Source of the DNA: a virus | Reading direction: 5' to 3' (one strand) | DNA length: 33,563 bases | IMG/VR virus record: IMGVR_UViG_3300008267_001363 | Span: 1 to 33,563 of that record | In this document: positions 3,751 to 29,179 of the stretch, one piece after another | Numbering within the stretch: position 1 is the stretch's first letter | Layout: the number at the start of each line of letters is the position of its first letter | The notes under the pieces: generated by a model | Databases searched by the model: none | Seen by the model: only the letters and a program-made list of their open reading frames with translations | What the model was told of the DNA's origin: nothing | Translations under genes and position numbers: made by a program

Positions 3751-3759
3751 TATTTATAA
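3750..3759 (+). promoter_or_regulatory. Boundary motif ATATTTATAA before the portal gene
   Basis: This is an exact copy. Its first A is the last base of the terminase stop codon, and ten bases separate the TATTTATA core from ATG 3769. It is a candidate late-promoter element, inferred from recurrence and position only. Confidence 0.5.
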
Positions 3760-10248: not shown

Positions 10249-11898
10249 ATGTCACAAGTACAACAACTTTTAGAAAGCGCAGCTGGTTCTTGGAAGAACT
10301 TGCAAAGCGACGCCGCTAAATTGTCTAGCAAATGGACTAAAACCGGCTTATTAGAAGGTTTGGGTGAGGTTGAGAAAAACAATATGTCAATCTTACTTGA
10401 AAACCAAGCAAAACAGTTAGTAACAGAAGCTAACCAAATTTCTACTAACTCTTATTTTACTAACGGTACTCAAGGTGAAAACTGGGCTGGTATTGCATTA
10501 CCTTTAGTTCGTAAGGTATTCGGTACAATCGTAGCTAAAGAATTCGTTTCAGTTCAACCTATGAACATGCCTTCAGGCCTTGTGTTCTTCTTGGATTTCC
10601 AATATGGTAACTCTAAGACTCCATTCGGTGCTAACGGATCTTTATATGGTGACAGGAACGCTTCTGGTCCATTCCCATTTGCTACTCCTGCTGCTTCAGG
10701 TGGTCTTTACAATCCAGCTAACAAATTCTCCTACTCTCAAAACACAACTTCTTCAGTAGTATCTGCTACGATCATCACCGCCTCTTGGCAGGAAGTTAAT
10801 TTTGATTCTGAATTGTCAGCTTCTATCGCTGCTGGTAACGTTAAGAAATTCACAGTTTCTACAGCTACTACTACTTTACCTAACTTTGATGCTGATTCTA
10901 CAAGAGGATTCGCTTTCACTTCAGGTTCAATTTTCACAGTTGCTAGAGCTTTACCTCAGTTCACTACTTACAACTACACTGCAAACACTATTACTTTCTT
11001 CTTGACTGGTTCAACTGCTGAAACTAATGGTACTGCTGTAGCTGGTGGTTCTGTTGTAACTTACACTAAAGCTACTACTGATCAATACAGAGGTGATTTT
11101 GAAGAATCTTCTTCTTACGCTGTACCTAACGCTCAAAGTGCTACTCAAATCGTTATCCCTGAGATCAACGTTAAAATGCAATCTCAAGCCATCACTGCTA
11201 AGACTCGTAAGTTGAAAGCTGTATGGACTCCTGAATTCGCACAAGATTTAGCTGCTTACCAAAACATCGATGCTGAAGCTGAATTGACTAACATCATGAG
11301 TGAGTACATTTCAATGGAAATTGATTTGGAAATCTTGGATATGTTGATCGAAGATGCTGCTGCTGGTACTGAGTACTGGAGCGCAGTAAACAACACTACT
11401 ATTAGTACTACTGGTACTTTCGGTTCTGCTGGTTACTACAACACTCAAGGACAATGGTTCCAAACTTTGGGTACTAAAATCCAAAAGTTAAGCAACAAAA
11501 TTCACCAGTTAACTTTACGTGGTGGTGCTAATTTCTTGGTTACTTCTCCTACAGTTGCTACTGTGTTGGAATCTATCCCTGGATTTGCTTCTACTTCAAA
11601 TGGTGAAGCTGAACAAATGGAGTATGCTTTCGGTGTACAAAAAGTAGGTTCAGTAAACGGTCGTTACAAGGTTTACAAAAACCCTTACATGACTGAAAAC
11701 GTAATCTTGTTAGGTTACAAAGGTTCACAATTCTTGGAAACTGGTGCTGTATTTGCTCCTTACATTCCTATGATTATGACTCCTTTGGTGTACGATCCTG
11801 ATACCTTCACTCCACGTAAAGGTCTTTCCAAGTCAGTTACCCATTCAAAGTTTCGTTATGAACTTTCCATTCTCATTATCAACCGCAGATCCAAATAA
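10249..11898 (+). CDS. Major capsid protein (T4 gp23-like)
   Basis: The 549-residue HK97-fold shell protein carries QPMNMPSGLVFFLDFQYG (about residues 104-121), the counterpart of the QPMN segment of T4 gp23, and a C-terminal FLETGAVFAPYIPMIMTPLV then YDPDTFTPRKG block typical of gp23 relatives. Upstream, QLVTE-ANQ (cut after Glu60) resembles the FLTE-AE site where T4 gp21 trims gp23, so the mature protein probably starts at Ala61. Codon use is noticeably more C-rich than in the neighbours, consistent with high expression. T4 gp23 is 521 residues. The last 41 bases overlap the next gene in another frame, and the final residues (SILIINRRSK) are unlike the gp23 C-termini I know. Confidence 0.95.
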   Translation: MSQVQQLLESAAGSWKNLQSDAAKLSSKWTKTGLLEGLGEVEKNNMSILLENQAKQLVTEANQISTNSYFTNGTQGENWAGIALPLVRKVFGTIVAKEFVSVQPMNMPSGLVFFLDFQYGNSKTPFGANGSLYGDRNASGPFPFATPAASGGLYNPANKFSYSQNTTSSVVSATIITASWQEVNFDSELSASIAAGNVKKFTVSTATTTLPNFDADSTRGFAFTSGSIFTVARALPQFTTYNYTANTITFFLTGSTAETNGTAVAGGSVVTYTKATTDQYRGDFEESSSYAVPNAQSATQIVIPEINVKMQSQAITAKTRKLKAVWTPEFAQDLAAYQNIDAEAELTNIMSEYISMEIDLEILDMLIEDAAAGTEYWSAVNNTTISTTGTFGSAGYYNTQGQWFQTLGTKIQKLSNKIHQLTLRGGANFLVTSPTVATVLESIPGFASTSNGEAEQMEYAFGVQKVGSVNGRYKVYKNPYMTENVILLGYKGSQFLETGAVFAPYIPMIMTPLVYDPDTFTPRKGLSKSVTHSKFRYELSILIINRRSK

Positions 11899-12730
11899 CA
11901 TTTGGATGCAAGAGTTAACAGATGAGGAATTAGCAATTAATAAACCTAAAGCATACAAACAGTTTATGGACTTGTATAACTTTGTTGCTGGTGGTGCTCT
12001 AGTAAACTTATTACCCTCAGAAGGTAATTTTCAAGATCAAGTTTATGTAGCTAATTTGGGTATTTATTTACCTCACATTAAAAACGAAAATCATATTATT
12101 TTATCTAATTTTACTTCTGACCCTCGTAAAGGTGAAGAATTAGTTGGAGAAAAATATTTTAATCAAATGGGTTATAAAACAGCAATCTCCCCATACAAAT
12201 GGGAAGGTGAGGCCGATTTGAAATACCTTTACGGAAACAAATATATTGGTGGTTACGGTATTCGTTCAAACATCAAAGCATATGAGTGGATGGAAGAAAC
12301 TTACAATATGGATATTCTTAAAGTAGCTATGGTTGATGAATATTTGTATCATTTAGATTGTTCTATCTTCGCATTAAACCAAGACCAGACATTAGTTTGC
12401 ACTGAATTGTTTGATGAGGAAGAATTGCAAATGATGGAAAAAGAAACAGAAATTATTGATATTCATGTTGACGATGCTTTGTGTGGATTAACTAATTCTG
12501 TAAGAATGGGTAATATGATTATGTGTGCCTCTAATATTTCTGAATTGAAAAAATCACATGAGTATTATGAAGGTGAAAAACACAAAATTGAAACATTAGA
12601 AAAGATTTGTAGCGATGCTGGTATGGAACCTGCTATCTTCAATCTATCAGAATATATGAAATCAGGTGCTATGTTGTCTTGTATGATGATGCATTTGAAT
12701 AGAGTTGACCACAATAAAACCTTATTATAA
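11858..12730 (+). CDS. Amidinotransferase / dimethylargininase-family enzyme
   Basis: The 290-residue protein matches the guanidino-group-modifying superfamily (arginine deiminase, dimethylarginine dimethylaminohydrolase, amidinotransferases), which attacks the guanidinium carbon with a cysteine. In order: DPNNIWM (11-17), DQVYVANLGIYLP (60-72), DPRKGEE (88-94), WEGEADLKYL (115-124), GGYGIRSN (131-138), the His-Asp motif YHLDCSIFAL (164-173, His165 and Asp167), LTNSVRMGN (211-219), and near the end SEYMKSGAMLSCMMMHL with the presumed nucleophile Cys275. The full catalytic layout is kept, so an active enzyme is likely; the substrate is unknown. ATG 11858 is chosen because conserved PNN-W-M lies before the later ATG 11906. 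The start lies inside the capsid gene, and the stop shares an A with the next start. Confidence 0.85.
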   Translation: MNFPFSLSTADPNNIWMQELTDEELAINKPKAYKQFMDLYNFVAGGALVNLLPSEGNFQDQVYVANLGIYLPHIKNENHIILSNFTSDPRKGEELVGEKYFNQMGYKTAISPYKWEGEADLKYLYGNKYIGGYGIRSNIKAYEWMEETYNMDILKVAMVDEYLYHLDCSIFALNQDQTLVCTELFDEEELQMMEKETEIIDIHVDDALCGLTNSVRMGNMIMCASNISELKKSHEYYEGEKHKIETLEKICSDAGMEPAIFNLSEYMKSGAMLSCMMMHLNRVDHNKTLL

Positions 12731-13467
12731 TGGCACAAACATTACAAGAATGGTTAAGTACTGAAGTTAAACAACTTCAGAAAATGCCTGTTGGAGAATT
12801 ATCTAACACATTTTTCTTTAGAGACCCAATTCGCCCAAACTATATTGACCATGAGCATTTTTACTCACCTGCTGATGGAACTATTTTATACCAAAAGTTT
12901 ATTAAAGATCCTTCTGAACCTATAGTTGAAATTAAGGGTATGAATTATACTCTTCAAGATGTTATGGGCGATGATGAATACAATAAACCTTCACTAGTTA
13001 TTGGTATATTTATGTCGTTTTATGATGTTCACATCAATCGTATACCCTACGGAGGTCTGCTGTCATATAAACCACTAGACGCGATTCAATCAACTAACAA
13101 ACCTATGTTGGCGGTTGAAAAAGATATATTAAATAAAAAAATTAACCCCGCAAACATGGAGTACTTAAAGTATAACGAGCGTATGTGGAATAAAATTTAT
13201 TCACCTACCTTAGATTATACTTATTACTTAATTCAAATTGCTGACGAGGATGTAAACGTTATTGCTCCCTTTACTATGGATCAAAACGATGTTTTTGCTC
13301 AAAACGAAAGATTTTCTTTAATTAGATGGGGTTCACAGGTTGATTTGGTGTTACCATTAGATGATAGATATGATTTCGAGTTATGTTTAGATGATGCTAT
13401 GCATGTTAATGCTGGCTTAGACCAACTTGTAAAAATTAACTTTAATGAATACAAAACTAACTCATGA
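12730..13467 (+). CDS. Phosphatidylserine decarboxylase-family pyruvoyl enzyme
   Basis: The 245-residue protein carries the family signature in order: FFFRDPIRPNY (28-38), YSPADG with Asp49 (45-50), IFMSFYDVHINRIPYGG with His101 (93-109), NERMWNK (149-155), YYLIQIADEDVNVI (165-178), and the self-cleavage region NERFSLIRWGSQVDLVLP with Gly201-Ser202 (192-209). In the family an Asp-His-Ser triad cuts before the serine, which becomes the pyruvoyl cofactor of the alpha chain; all three are present. Characterised members convert phosphatidylserine to phosphatidylethanolamine at the membrane; some relatives act on amino acids. No membrane helix is seen, and the length suits the short bacterial forms. 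It is joined by overlaps to the enzyme before it and to the PhoH gene after it. Confidence 0.88.
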   Translation: MAQTLQEWLSTEVKQLQKMPVGELSNTFFFRDPIRPNYIDHEHFYSPADGTILYQKFIKDPSEPIVEIKGMNYTLQDVMGDDEYNKPSLVIGIFMSFYDVHINRIPYGGLLSYKPLDAIQSTNKPMLAVEKDILNKKINPANMEYLKYNERMWNKIYSPTLDYTYYLIQIADEDVNVIAPFTMDQNDVFAQNERFSLIRWGSQVDLVLPLDDRYDFELCLDDAMHVNAGLDQLVKINFNEYKTNS

Positions 13468-14140
13468 AGATTCTATCTTCCAAGAAAAACGTAAACCGAA
13501 AAACCCCATTAAATTTAAATTAAACCTAAACGAGGAACAAAAAGACGCAAAGTCTAAAATCTTAAATAACACAATTACTCTATTAGCAGGATCAGCAGGT
13601 TCAGGTAAAACATTACTTGCTTGTCAGATCGCATTAGAGAAATTGTTTATGAAAGAGGTTGAAAAGGTAATAATTACTAGACCAACTGTTTCTAAAGAAG
13701 AAATCGGATTCTTACCAGGCGATCTAAGAGAAAAAATGGATCCTTGGGTACAACCAATTTATCAAAACATGTATTTACTTTACGATAAAGATAAAGTAGA
13801 AAAATGTATTGCTGAAGGTTCTATTGAAATTGTACCTTTATCGTTTATGCGTGGTAGAACGTTTGTAAATAATTTTGTAATTGTAGATGAGGCACAAAAC
13901 GTAACTCATGAACAAATGCATATGATTGTTACTCGTATTGGTTTAAATTCAAAAATGATTATTTGTGGTGATGATGCTCAAGTAGACTTGAAGAAAAGAT
14001 CTGATTCTGGGTTTAAATTTTTATACAAAGGTGCATCAAAAATTAAAAAATTAGAAGCCATTACTTTAAAAACAAACCACAGAGATCCTATTGTAGAAGA
14101 TTTGTTGAGATATTACGACGAATCCCCTATCAATATTTAA
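13445..14140 (+). CDS. phoH: PhoH-like ATPase
   Basis: The 231-residue P-loop protein has Walker A GSAGSGKT (49-56), the family segment ITRPTVSKEEIGFLPGD (77-93), Walker B FVIVDEAQN (144-152), and a sensor-like ICGDDAQVD (173-181). These mark the PhoH family, common in marine and freshwater phages and related to superfamily 1 helicases; its role in infection is unsettled, though RNA-directed activity has been proposed for the family. The first 23 bases overlap the decarboxylase gene. PhoH genes usually sit among nucleotide or host-takeover genes, so its place in the capsid operon, joined to two metabolic enzymes, is of interest. Confidence 0.93.
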   Translation: MNTKLTHEDSIFQEKRKPKNPIKFKLNLNEEQKDAKSKILNNTITLLAGSAGSGKTLLACQIALEKLFMKEVEKVIITRPTVSKEEIGFLPGDLREKMDPWVQPIYQNMYLLYDKDKVEKCIAEGSIEIVPLSFMRGRTFVNNFVIVDEAQNVTHEQMHMIVTRIGLNSKMIICGDDAQVDLKKRSDSGFKFLYKGASKIKKLEAITLKTNHRDPIVEDLLRYYDESPINI

Positions 14141-14158: not shown

Positions 14159-14167
14159 ATATTTATA
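14159..14167 (+). promoter_or_regulatory. Boundary motif ATATTTATA opening the adhesion block
   Basis: This exact nine-base copy is followed by C rather than A. Seventeen bases separate it from ATG 14185, the longest spacing among the exact copies. It would start the unit 14185-15055. Confidence 0.48.
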
Positions 14168-27117: not shown

Positions 27118-29042
27118 TGGGAAAAGATATAATAATAAAACCATCCTCTAGTATAATCCAATTCTCCGGGAGTACCGGAGAAATTGGAGCTAGTATTGAA
27201 TTAGATAACGTAGGAAGATTAGTATTATCTTCCTCACAAGTTATTTTTGGTCCCGGAAATAATGACATTTATGTTGGAGATGGTACTTCTAGCGCAAATA
27301 TTATTTTTGATAGAGACGGTGCTATTAAAGCCGAATCAGGAAGTAATGCCCAAATTACTTTAGGATCAGGAGATTCAAGATTAAACATATCAGGTAGTAC
27401 TGTTTATATCACAGGTAGTAATGTAGCAATTGGACCTTTTAGTTCAAGTTTTGCTAATATTACTAGTGGTTCTATTACCGCAAGTATTAGCTCAAACTTT
27501 ATTTCTGCTAGTGTTGTAAGCGCAAGTAATGCTAGAATTAATAATTTAGTAACTACTAATTATACTAGTTCTTATATTGCTTTACAACCTGATGGTGCTA
27601 TTTATTTTAATGATAATACATTAGCAGTAGCTGGATTAAAAGCACAAAACTATGTTGATACTGGTTCATTAATTCCTTTTGGAGATACAGCAGGTGATGC
27701 TTTTAGAATTGTATCCGCTAGTACAAACTGGTTCTTTATAGCATCTGGATATGATGCAACAGGTTCATTACCTCCATCAACCGGAAGTGTACATTACTTT
27801 GGAACAGGTTCAGTATCTGCAAGTGCTTTTGAATTATTAGGTAATAAAATAAATAGTGTATTAAGTTCTAGTTTATTATTTTATACTATTAACAGTACAA
27901 TATTTGCCCTTAGTGCATCATTTACTGGTTCAAGATATAATGGAATTATTTTCCAATCTGGTTCTTTTTCAGGTTCCGTTTCAGGTTCAACAGGTACTTC
28001 GTTTAATACAATTTTCACATTAGCTGGAGGTACTAATTATACTTCTAGTTTCTTAGATAGAGGTGGTAGTATTTCTTTAGATAATTTAGGAAATATTGTT
28101 ATTGATAGTGTTTCTGGTAGTGTTTACTTAGCTAAAGATAGACATGATATCTACATTGGTGATGGTACTAGCTCAGCAAATATAGTATTTGATTACAACG
28201 GTGCTATTAAAGGTGAAGCTAATGCTAGATTTAATACTGGTAGTTTTGGCTTAATTTCAGGAAGTAGATTAAACTTAAATAATAACAGTGGTATTTTCTT
28301 CACAGGAAGTACTTCAACTCCAGGAGCTAGTATTCAATTAGACAATTTTGGTGATTTAGTATTATCGGCTGTTAGTGGTAATGTTAGTATTGGTAACAAT
28401 ACAAACGAAATCTATATTGGTGATGGAACAGGCTCAGCATCATTATTGTTTGATACTGGAGGAAATATAAAAACCACTAATGGTAATGCATTATTGATAG
28501 GTTCATCTTCTGCACCTTTATATTTAACAGGTTCAAGTGTTGTATTACAGCAAAATGGTGGTACTACAGTATTTGGTGGATCTACAGTAGTTACAGGTTC
28601 ATTTACAGGTTCATTTATTGGAAACGGTTCAGGATTAACAAATTTAAATATATCCTCTTCAAATACATCAGGTTCATTTACAGGTTCATTTGGTGGTACT
28701 GGTTCATTAAGATTAGAAACAGGTTCAGTAGGTTTATCTTTAGATGTAGCTTCTGATTTCTTAAGATTTTCATCAGGTTCAACTGTAAACTTTGCAGCAC
28801 AACAAGTAGCAGGTACTACAAGCATGTCTTTTGCCTTTAATACAGGTTCAGCTGTTGGTGGTCAAGGTGCTACATTTGATGTTAGAGCAACTGCTGTTAT
28901 AATGAACCCACAAGGAGCTAACTACAATGAAAATTTAAGATTACCAGCATCTCCTGGTGGATATTCTTCTATTGTAATGAATGGTCCTGTAGCAGGATTA
29001 GCATCTCAAGGAGGAGTATGGTCAATTTATTCCTACATTTAG
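27117..29042 (+). CDS. Repeat-rich tail fibre protein, 3' end out of frame
   Basis: The 641-residue product is Ser/Gly/Thr-rich. A unit of about 60 residues occurs three times, built of a SI-x-LDN-x-G strand pair followed by DIYVGDGTSSANIIFD-type text. The shaft contains SGS/TGS triplets and the hinge FTGSFIGNGSGLTNL. A C-terminal beta domain follows (LRLPASPGGYSSIVMNGPVA). The frame ends abruptly at TAG 29040-29042 after WSIYSYI, while the expected tip continues in another frame. The start overlaps the stop of the giant paralogue. It is likely a trimeric fibre shaft translated with copy B. Confidence 0.78.
   Translation: MGKDIIIKPSSSIIQFSGSTGEIGASIELDNVGRLVLSSSQVIFGPGNNDIYVGDGTSSANIIFDRDGAIKAESGSNAQITLGSGDSRLNISGSTVYITGSNVAIGPFSSSFANITSGSITASISSNFISASVVSASNARINNLVTTNYTSSYIALQPDGAIYFNDNTLAVAGLKAQNYVDTGSLIPFGDTAGDAFRIVSASTNWFFIASGYDATGSLPPSTGSVHYFGTGSVSASAFELLGNKINSVLSSSLLFYTINSTIFALSASFTGSRYNGIIFQSGSFSGSVSGSTGTSFNTIFTLAGGTNYTSSFLDRGGSISLDNLGNIVIDSVSGSVYLAKDRHDIYIGDGTSSANIVFDYNGAIKGEANARFNTGSFGLISGSRLNLNNNSGIFFTGSTSTPGASIQLDNFGDLVLSAVSGNVSIGNNTNEIYIGDGTGSASLLFDTGGNIKTTNGNALLIGSSSAPLYLTGSSVVLQQNGGTTVFGGSTVVTGSFTGSFIGNGSGLTNLNISSSNTSGSFTGSFGGTGSLRLETGSVGLSLDVASDFLRFSSGSTVNFAAQQVAGTTSMSFAFNTGSAVGGQGATFDVRATAVIMNPQGANYNENLRLPASPGGYSSIVMNGPVAGLASQGGVWSIYSYI
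27261..28472 (+). repeat. Three in-frame 23-codon repeats within the fibre gene
   Basis: The best-conserved parts lie at 27261-27329, 28143-28211 and 28404-28472. They encode NDIYVGDGTSSANIIFD, HDIYIGDGTSSANIVFD and NEIYIGDGTGSASLLFD, each followed by a Gly-containing turn and an Ile-Lys. Each is preceded by a SI-LDN-G strand pair. Such modular repeats lengthen fibre shafts and can recombine. Confidence 0.85.
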
Positions 29043-29139
29043 TGGTTCAGATGGTCAGTTCTTATTTGGAAATGTTAGTGGTAACCAAGTAATGTTTGTG
29101 TGGATGGCTGGTCGTTGGAGATCAAGTTCCTTAGCTTAA
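29002..29139 (+). pseudogene. Out-of-frame fibre tip (GRWRSSSLA module)
   Basis: A +1 frame is open from 29002 to TAA 29137-29139. From about 29038 it encodes SGSDGQFLFGNVSGNQV then MFVWMAGRWRSSSLA, closely like the end of the fibre at 32098 (GEFRFVRTGSLNLIYAWVGG then AWRSGSLV). It is therefore the lost C-terminus of the gene at 27117. Removing one T from the TTT at 29026-29028 would restore WSIIPTFSGSDGQF. No ATG opens this frame in a useful position. The cause may be an assembly error, a genuine indel, or frameshifting. Confidence 0.72.
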
Positions 29140-29157
29140 CATTTCTGAGCCATTTTA

Positions 29158-29167
29158 ATATTTATAA
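29158..29167 (+). promoter_or_regulatory. Boundary motif ATATTTATAA before the neck genes
   Basis: This exact copy has thirteen bases between the core and ATG 29180. It would head the longest unit in the window, covering the gp13-, gp14- and gp15-like genes, a fibre and a lectin-like gene. Confidence 0.5.
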
Positions 29168-29179
29168 CAGAATATTACT

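Follow-up and report, generated by a model that had tools for sequence, protein, structure and literature searches.

The DNA stretch analyzed here, the virus record IMGVR_UViG_3300008267_001363 (33,563 bases, referred to below as the window), carries terminase, portal, protease, and capsid genes recognizable by Pfam and PHROG, followed by a cassette of three further genes that share the + strand with the capsid gene. The first (11858–12730) encodes a guanidino-modifying enzyme resembling arginine dihydrolases, here called AMT, and the second (12730–13467) a pyruvoyl decarboxylase of soluble type that resembles phosphatidylserine decarboxylase (PSD); a PhoH-like ATPase (13445–14140; PF02562, 3e-64) is the last gene of the operon. 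Between gp23, the major capsid gene (10249–11898; PF07068, 2e-73), and AMT the reading frames overlap by 41 bases, between AMT and PSD by 1, and between PSD and PhoH by 23, just as an earlier reading of the window from its letters alone (the sequence-only reading) had described the four genes, their positions, and their linkage. AMT matches PHROG_12759 (2e-64) and has no Pfam match below 0.1, whereas PSD matches both PHROG_12670 and PF02666 (2e-24); both PHROG families are listed as of unknown function. As set out below, AMT and PSD almost certainly constitute a two-gene module, which might lead from arginine to a small amine.

IMG/VR was searched for relatives of AMT and PSD, yielding 466 viral loci, many of them overlapping views of the same contigs, recruited by either gene with the best 80 taken per scan, so that very distant unpaired copies could escape. 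The order gp23-AMT-PSD-PhoH is found in 384 of the 466 loci of this redundant set. PSD is adjacent to 125 of 131 distinct viral AMTs, with an insertion between the two genes in 3 and a contig end in the remaining 3; none is shown to be unpaired. Viewed from the other gene, 126 of 133 distinct viral PSDs have AMT in the same locus, 4 are Campylobacter phage copies with AMT elsewhere, and 3 lie at a contig end. The pair thus co-occurs in environmental phages, as the sequence-only reading had proposed to check. Of 83 distinct loci, 79 keep the 1-base AMT/PSD overlap, and PSD and PhoH overlap in 59 of 74, while the 41-base gp23/AMT overlap is specific to this contig (see below). Within the environmental group adjacency is rarely broken; L127 and L079 are such cases, with insertions of ~750 and ~1050 bp, respectively, separating AMT from PSD.

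The same association holds among 50,697 phage records. AMT is present in 47 of these (40 Campylobacter, 6 Bacteroides, and 1 distant Xanthomonas record) and PSD above noise in 45 (39 Campylobacter and 6 Bacteroides), five more PSD matches at E ≥2 being left out of the count. AMT is also present in all 45 PSD-bearing records, including those in which it lies far from PSD; the sole Campylobacter record with AMT only, PP921807, holds it in pieces that cover half of the query. Each of 13 large phage records, out of 13, has exactly one AMT and one PSD, and Campylobacter phage NCTC 12673 carries both. AMT of Campylobacter phage F361 is flanked by the helicase (gp41) and sliding clamp (gp45) genes, and its PSD, which neighbors a GroES-like gene, is ~90 kb away in the record, whereas in Bacteroides phage SJC03 the two are separated by 15 bp and sit among replication genes. 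PhoH comes after the pair in the environmental phage group, and an association with the capsid gene as a property of the family is ruled out by the Bacteroides and Campylobacter phages. The sequence-only reading had named independent occurrence of the two enzymes in unrelated positions as evidence against itself; the positions do vary, but independent occurrence in phages was not seen.

The AlphaFold2 model of AMT (predicted local distance difference test, pLDDT, 93.5) has the α/β propeller fold, Cys nucleophile, His, and Glu of the pentein superfamily of guanidino-group modifying enzymes. Its seven best fold matches in the PDB are all ArgZ or AgrE (Z 34.1–34.6, root-mean-square deviation 1.8–2.0, the best at 34.6 and 1.8), followed by the dihydrolase AstB (Z 27.6), DDAH (26.9), and ADI (26.0), with the amidinotransferases SxtG, AGAT, HsvA, and StrB1 ranking behind all of these (22.7–24.5). 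A sequence search of the PDB agrees, with ArgZ and AgrE (8e-24) as the only matches below 1e-5. Residues Glu130, His179, Asp181, and Cys289 (full-length AMT numbering) match the catalytic set of these relatives. The codon of His179 (12350–12352), which aligns with the His of AgrE, AstB, and the ADI family, is conserved in 121 of 121 viral AMTs, and that of the nucleophile Cys289 (12680–12682) in 120 of 121, with one gap; it corresponds to ArgZ Cys264, the residue named in the title of PDB entry 6jv1 (C264S).

A further position helps to place AMT within the superfamily. Asn80 (12053–12055) is invariant in the 121 viral AMTs, and the dihydrolases AgrE and E. coli AstB likewise have Asn here; Asp occupies the position in all four arginine-deiminase-family proteins compared, none of which passed the curated arcA cut-off, and presumably also in amidinotransferases, if Asp170 of AGAT is taken as representative. 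The corresponding residue of ArgZ, Asn71, is the one changed in PDB entry 6juz, which according to its title holds a covalent intermediate; residue roles in ArgZ and AgrE are taken here from PDB titles and general background. AMT also shares Arg104 and Arg150 with deiminases, in which such arginines bind the carboxylate of arginine, and this favors arginine over agmatine as the substrate. Hence, fold and active site suggest that AMT probably has arginine dihydrolase chemistry, and the name amidinotransferase given in the sequence-only reading does not suit it. The relationship is distant, however: AMT and ArgZ share 24% identity across 264 residues, and AMT scores 83 bits against the NCBIfam arginine dihydrolase family NF052232, whose cut-off is 450. 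We therefore do not file AMT as a member of that family, but only as an enzyme that probably works like one.

The second enzyme carries the PADG, DVHxNR, and Gly-Ser cleavage motifs of E. coli and Bacteroidota PSDs and scores 86.7 bits against PF02666, where the gathering cut-off is 22. In its AlphaFold2 model (pLDDT 84.2), the best catalytic structural match is E. coli PSD (Z 10.9, 4.4–4.5 Å) and the second is the tryptophan decarboxylase PsiD (Z 9.4), values that EIIA-Glc folds also reach. The range aligned with E. coli PSD ends at residue 200, beside the predicted self-cleavage site Gly201-Ser202 (13330–13335), which would give rise to the pyruvoyl group. All 118 viral PSDs compared keep Asp49, His101, Gly201, and Ser202. 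The cassette enzymes read GSQ at the cleavage serine, whereas two canonical Bacteroidota PSDs read GSR. Judged from hydropathy, the cassette PSD is soluble and without a transmembrane segment: the maximum over 19 residues is 0.88–1.17 in six cassette PSDs, whereas a canonical Bacteroidota PSD, in which a membrane segment is obvious, reaches 2.36. In a PSD tree the long branches meet without resolution, one of its rows (canonical_L503) is an incorrect reading frame, and only pairwise identities are used here. The record of phage NCTC12673 gp085 (L513, 1501–2268) notes a similarity of its PSD-like protein to an entry of AF210249, which we take to be the bleomycin gene cluster and thus a possible further PSD-fold amine decarboxylase.

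In bacteria, the partner of AMT is exchangeable. We compared 18 bacterial loci, 17 with AMT relatives from a GTDB genome scan and one (L500) from a Bacteroidota survey. In each of the six Xenorhabdus loci, PSD-AMT precedes an ABC exporter (ABC genes being named by Pfam in L474 and L482 and by clustering in the other loci), and a metagenome-assembled genome (MAG) of the Saprospiraceae has the reverse order, AMT-PSD, followed by a MATE exporter. In PSD's place, four cyanobacteria have a pyridoxal phosphate (PLP) decarboxylase of the PF02784/PF00278 family (Orn/DAP/Arg) adjoining AMT, identified by Pfam in L482, by NCBIfam in L482, L483, and L485, and by clustering in L481; in Spirulina, an Orn/Lys/Arg decarboxylase (PF01276, 2e-77) fills that place. 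A decarboxylase thus adjoins AMT in 12 of 18 loci, drawn from three unrelated folds. The Saprospiraceae and Xenorhabdus carriers possess a second, canonical PSD; in Tolypothrix, where AMT adjoins the PLP decarboxylase, no PSD match is found in the genome. A wider survey of cell genomes at E 1e-60 detects AMT in 1 cyanobacterial genome out of 386 and in 2 Bacteroidota genomes out of 395, each count including the already-known genome at its center, and a plasmid search returned two distant matches only, both named dimethylargininase. In a Myxococcales MAG (L480, 1021–2891), two AMT genes stand in tandem with an asparagine-synthase-like gene nearby.

The near-perfect pairing in phages, together with the adjacency in bacteria, supports a single pathway for the two enzymes, and the exchange of decarboxylase folds beside AMT is the main ground for reading the PSD-like protein as a decarboxylase of basic amino acids. 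In the proposed scheme, AMT would use its Cys-His-Glu machinery to convert L-arginine to L-ornithine, CO2, and two NH3. The soluble PSD-fold enzyme, having cleaved itself to form its pyruvoyl cofactor, would then remove the carboxyl group of a basic amino acid; ornithine, yielding putrescine, is the likeliest candidate, and decarboxylation of arginine ahead of the AMT step would give the same net product. Possible uses of the amine are in condensing and packaging DNA, in replication, or in translation. We consider the chances evenly balanced that the cassette is a two-step phage route from arginine to a small amine such as putrescine, and the case for putrescine itself stands at about even. 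Amine or polyamine is hence the best supported of the products that the sequence-only reading had listed for a joint pathway; the aminolipid that it also listed is disfavored.

An arginine-ornithine-putrescine route agrees with the findings above, and several published observations bear on it. In polyamine-depleted cells, T4 DNA synthesis and maturation drop (PMC7226272, in part), and a Pseudomonas phage that raises putrescine replicates faster, according to an excerpt of PMC11898732. During infection of C. jejuni by phage NCTC 12673, which carries the pair, argBCD rise 2.7–3.3-fold, as given in a section of PMC6024767. B. thetaiotaomicron is depicted, in a figure legend of PMC10135574, as making putrescine through arginine decarboxylase, agmatine deiminase, and NCPAH, so that a route through ornithine would be a bypass. 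A tentative, more far-reaching version of the proposal, which we hold to be somewhat less probable than not, is that the PSD fold has come to serve as a pyruvoyl-dependent decarboxylase of ornithine (or arginine), completing with the arginine dihydrolase a two-gene phage route from arginine to putrescine that bypasses the hosts' agmatine route, and that exported amines are the products of the same module in Xenorhabdus, Saprospiraceae, and cyanobacteria, where decarboxylases of two PLP folds can stand in.

Each component has known counterparts. AMT resembles ArgZ/AgrE of the cyanobacterial ornithine-ammonia cycle in its fold (264 residues aligned), its catalytic Glu, His, and Cys, Asp181, and the Asn71-equivalent Asn80; it differs in having no C-terminal ornithine cyclodeaminase domain and in its PSD-fold decarboxylase partner. 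Tolypothrix has both an AgrE-like frame of 712 amino acids and AMT. PsiD, an L-tryptophan decarboxylase that is 12–13% identical to the cassette PSD, demonstrates that a free amino acid can be accommodated by the PSD fold; it is a fungal enzyme with an aromatic substrate. Phages are already known to encode pyruvoyl-dependent ornithine and arginine decarboxylases derived from S-adenosylmethionine decarboxylase (AdoMetDC), as described in parts of PMC9992855 and PMC10407285. Those enzymes share with the cassette a phage location, a pyruvoyl cofactor, and putrescine or agmatine as product (predicted in the case of the cassette), but they have a different fold from the cassette PSD. PMC9992855 states that no arginase homologue was found in phages, and the word phosphatidylserine is absent from the main text of both PMC9992855 and PMC10407285. 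In the literature searched, we found no description of the AMT-PSD pair as a phage route from arginine to putrescine.

Four other explanations can be set against the arginine-to-amine route. AMT could be a true amidinotransferase that transfers an amidino group from arginine to an amine supplied by the decarboxylase (for example, from putrescine to agmatine or a diguanidine), the guanidino-amine being an exported natural product in bacteria. AMT does belong to the same fold superfamily as these enzymes, among them the polyamine amidinotransferase HsvA, and the exporters beside the pair, joined in three cyanobacteria by an agmatine-deiminase-like gene, would suit such a product; with dihydrolases clearly first by both structure and sequence, and Asn80 being the residue of both dihydrolase groups, we regard this as unlikely. 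The decarboxylase could instead act in phospholipid remodeling, making phosphatidylethanolamine (PE) or a related aminolipid during infection whose head group AMT then modifies. Hosts of these phages contain PE, and the PSD-like enzyme scores above the PF02666 cut-off with E. coli PSD as its best catalytic structural match. PE synthesis is also listed among the pathways of ocean virus genes in a section of PMC11360552, though with negligible psd abundances. The cassette PSDs, however, have no transmembrane hairpin, cellular carriers already own a canonical PSD, and a cyanobacterium without a PSD match pairs AMT with a PLP decarboxylase, which together make lipid remodeling quite improbable. 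The canonical PSD of the carriers and the lack of a membrane segment likewise disfavor housekeeping PE synthesis.

The genomic surroundings of the pair bear on the two remaining explanations. Its place among replication genes in SJC03, and that of AMT between gp41 and gp45 in Campylobacter phages, would fit enzymes that make or trim a side chain on DNA or another macromolecule (for instance, an ornithine-derived base modification) rather than a free polyamine, and Campylobacter phage DNA does carry an unusual base, deoxyinosine. No dedicated base-modification partner is found beside the pair in the annotated F361, though, and the chromosomal copies adjoin exporters, so that we see only a slight chance of such a role. 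Alternatively, the arginine step could starve the host of arginine or raise ammonia, with the decarboxylase acting on something unrelated and linkage alone keeping the two together. The rise of arginine genes in infected C. jejuni (PMC6024767, in part) and the bacterial loci in which AMT has no decarboxylase neighbor speak for this; the retention of the pair in Campylobacter phages, where linkage is lost, and the occurrence of both gene orders in bacteria speak against it, leaving it improbable in our view.

Weighing against the arginine-to-amine route itself, neither phage protein has a known activity, their functions being predicted, and we know of no PSD-fold member that uses ornithine or arginine. 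No decarboxylase is present among the scanned neighbors of AMT in 6 of the 18 bacterial loci (L480, L487, L488, L489, L490, and L500), so AMT also works in settings without an adjacent decarboxylase. The best NCBIfam match of the cyanobacterial decarboxylase neighbor is lysA, below its cut-off, and the bacterial exporters may mean that the product is secreted and is something other than plain putrescine. AdoMetDC is absent from 13 of 13 large phage records, a search that did not extend to other polyamine families, and the argBCD rise has other possible causes. If the route is real, a new enzyme fold would be added to polyamine synthesis, and two phage families that are now of unknown function or probably misnamed would be united in a single pathway open to testing, whose carriers are Campylobacter Fletcherviruses, Bacteroides phages, and a large group of T4-like phages from the environment. 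Surveys of auxiliary genes may currently book these enzymes as lipid metabolism.

The upstream boundary of the cassette in the window is unusual. In 80 of 80 distinct relatives with both genes, gp23 has a separate end: ~22 residues absent from the window, with a different C-terminus, and then a stop. From there to the AMT codon used as the start in the window, the distance is 137–1791 bp (median 156). The actual AMT start lies 42 nt upstream of that codon in 77 of 78 distinct relatives, and the window copy is therefore without its native start and first codons. Compared with the closest relative, L168, the window lacks 206 bp at 11827/11828 that comprise the gp23 end, a terminator, a promoter motif, and the first AMT codons; alignment to L168 and L004 places the junction at 11827–11828. 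The window's gp23 is native only to ~11827, and the last residues of its frame are the AMT gene read in another frame. Translational coupling through the 41-base overlap is ruled out by this contig-specific missing stretch, which illustrates how a deletion can mimic a gene overlap.

Each of the 78 distinct gp23-AMT spacers contains a hairpin (−8 kcal/mol or better) with a T tract after it, and each has the motif TAT[TG]TAT no more than 75 nt from the AMT start; mononucleotide shuffling of the same stretches yields the motif in a mean of 7.5 and a maximum of 14 of 78. The longer form TAT[TG]TATA has 10 matches on the + strand of the window, 8 of them intergenic despite a non-coding share of 2.7%, and this is why it looks like a late promoter. 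These coding-strand copies stand just before genes at 3751, 5658, 7471, 9049, 14160, 15057, 22848, and 29159; the one at 14160–14167 (TATTTATA) would start the transcription unit after PhoH. From its distribution, TAT[TG]TATA is the probable late promoter of this phage group, and it differs from what we take to be the T4 late promoter, TATAAATA. The sequence-only reading had noted that no promoter or terminator intervenes between gp23 and AMT, which holds for this contig in the strict sense, the missing stretch having taken both elements with it. Given the terminator and late-type motif in 78 of 78 relatives, the shared capsid transcript that it envisaged is not supported, in line with the placement of the pair among replication genes in SJC03 and the wide separation of the genes in Campylobacter phages; the AMT-PSD-PhoH operon would instead be expressed from its own late-type promoter.

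A second stretch, of 115 bp, is missing relative to L168 at 18182/18183, where the end of one gene is joined out of frame to the next. Between the two junctions, 6355 bp align to L168 without a gap. Both missing stretches damage genes, neither junction recurs in any other viral locus fetched, and an exact IMG/VR search for junction 11827/11828 gave 0 matches; natural deletion or misassembly may be responsible. A chimera joint, suspected from blocks of 82, 92, and 82% identity, was dropped, since in 100-base steps at the first joint identity is 92–100% before and mostly 89–94% after. Past the open reading frame ending at 29042, positions 29043–29179 are still coding-like in another frame, a possible further indel in the contig. 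Across relatives, the gp23-AMT spacer exceeds 700 bp in 19 of 82, and in L006, L008, and others it holds extra genes; the insert in L006 resembles an HNH-type endonuclease, as judged by eye.

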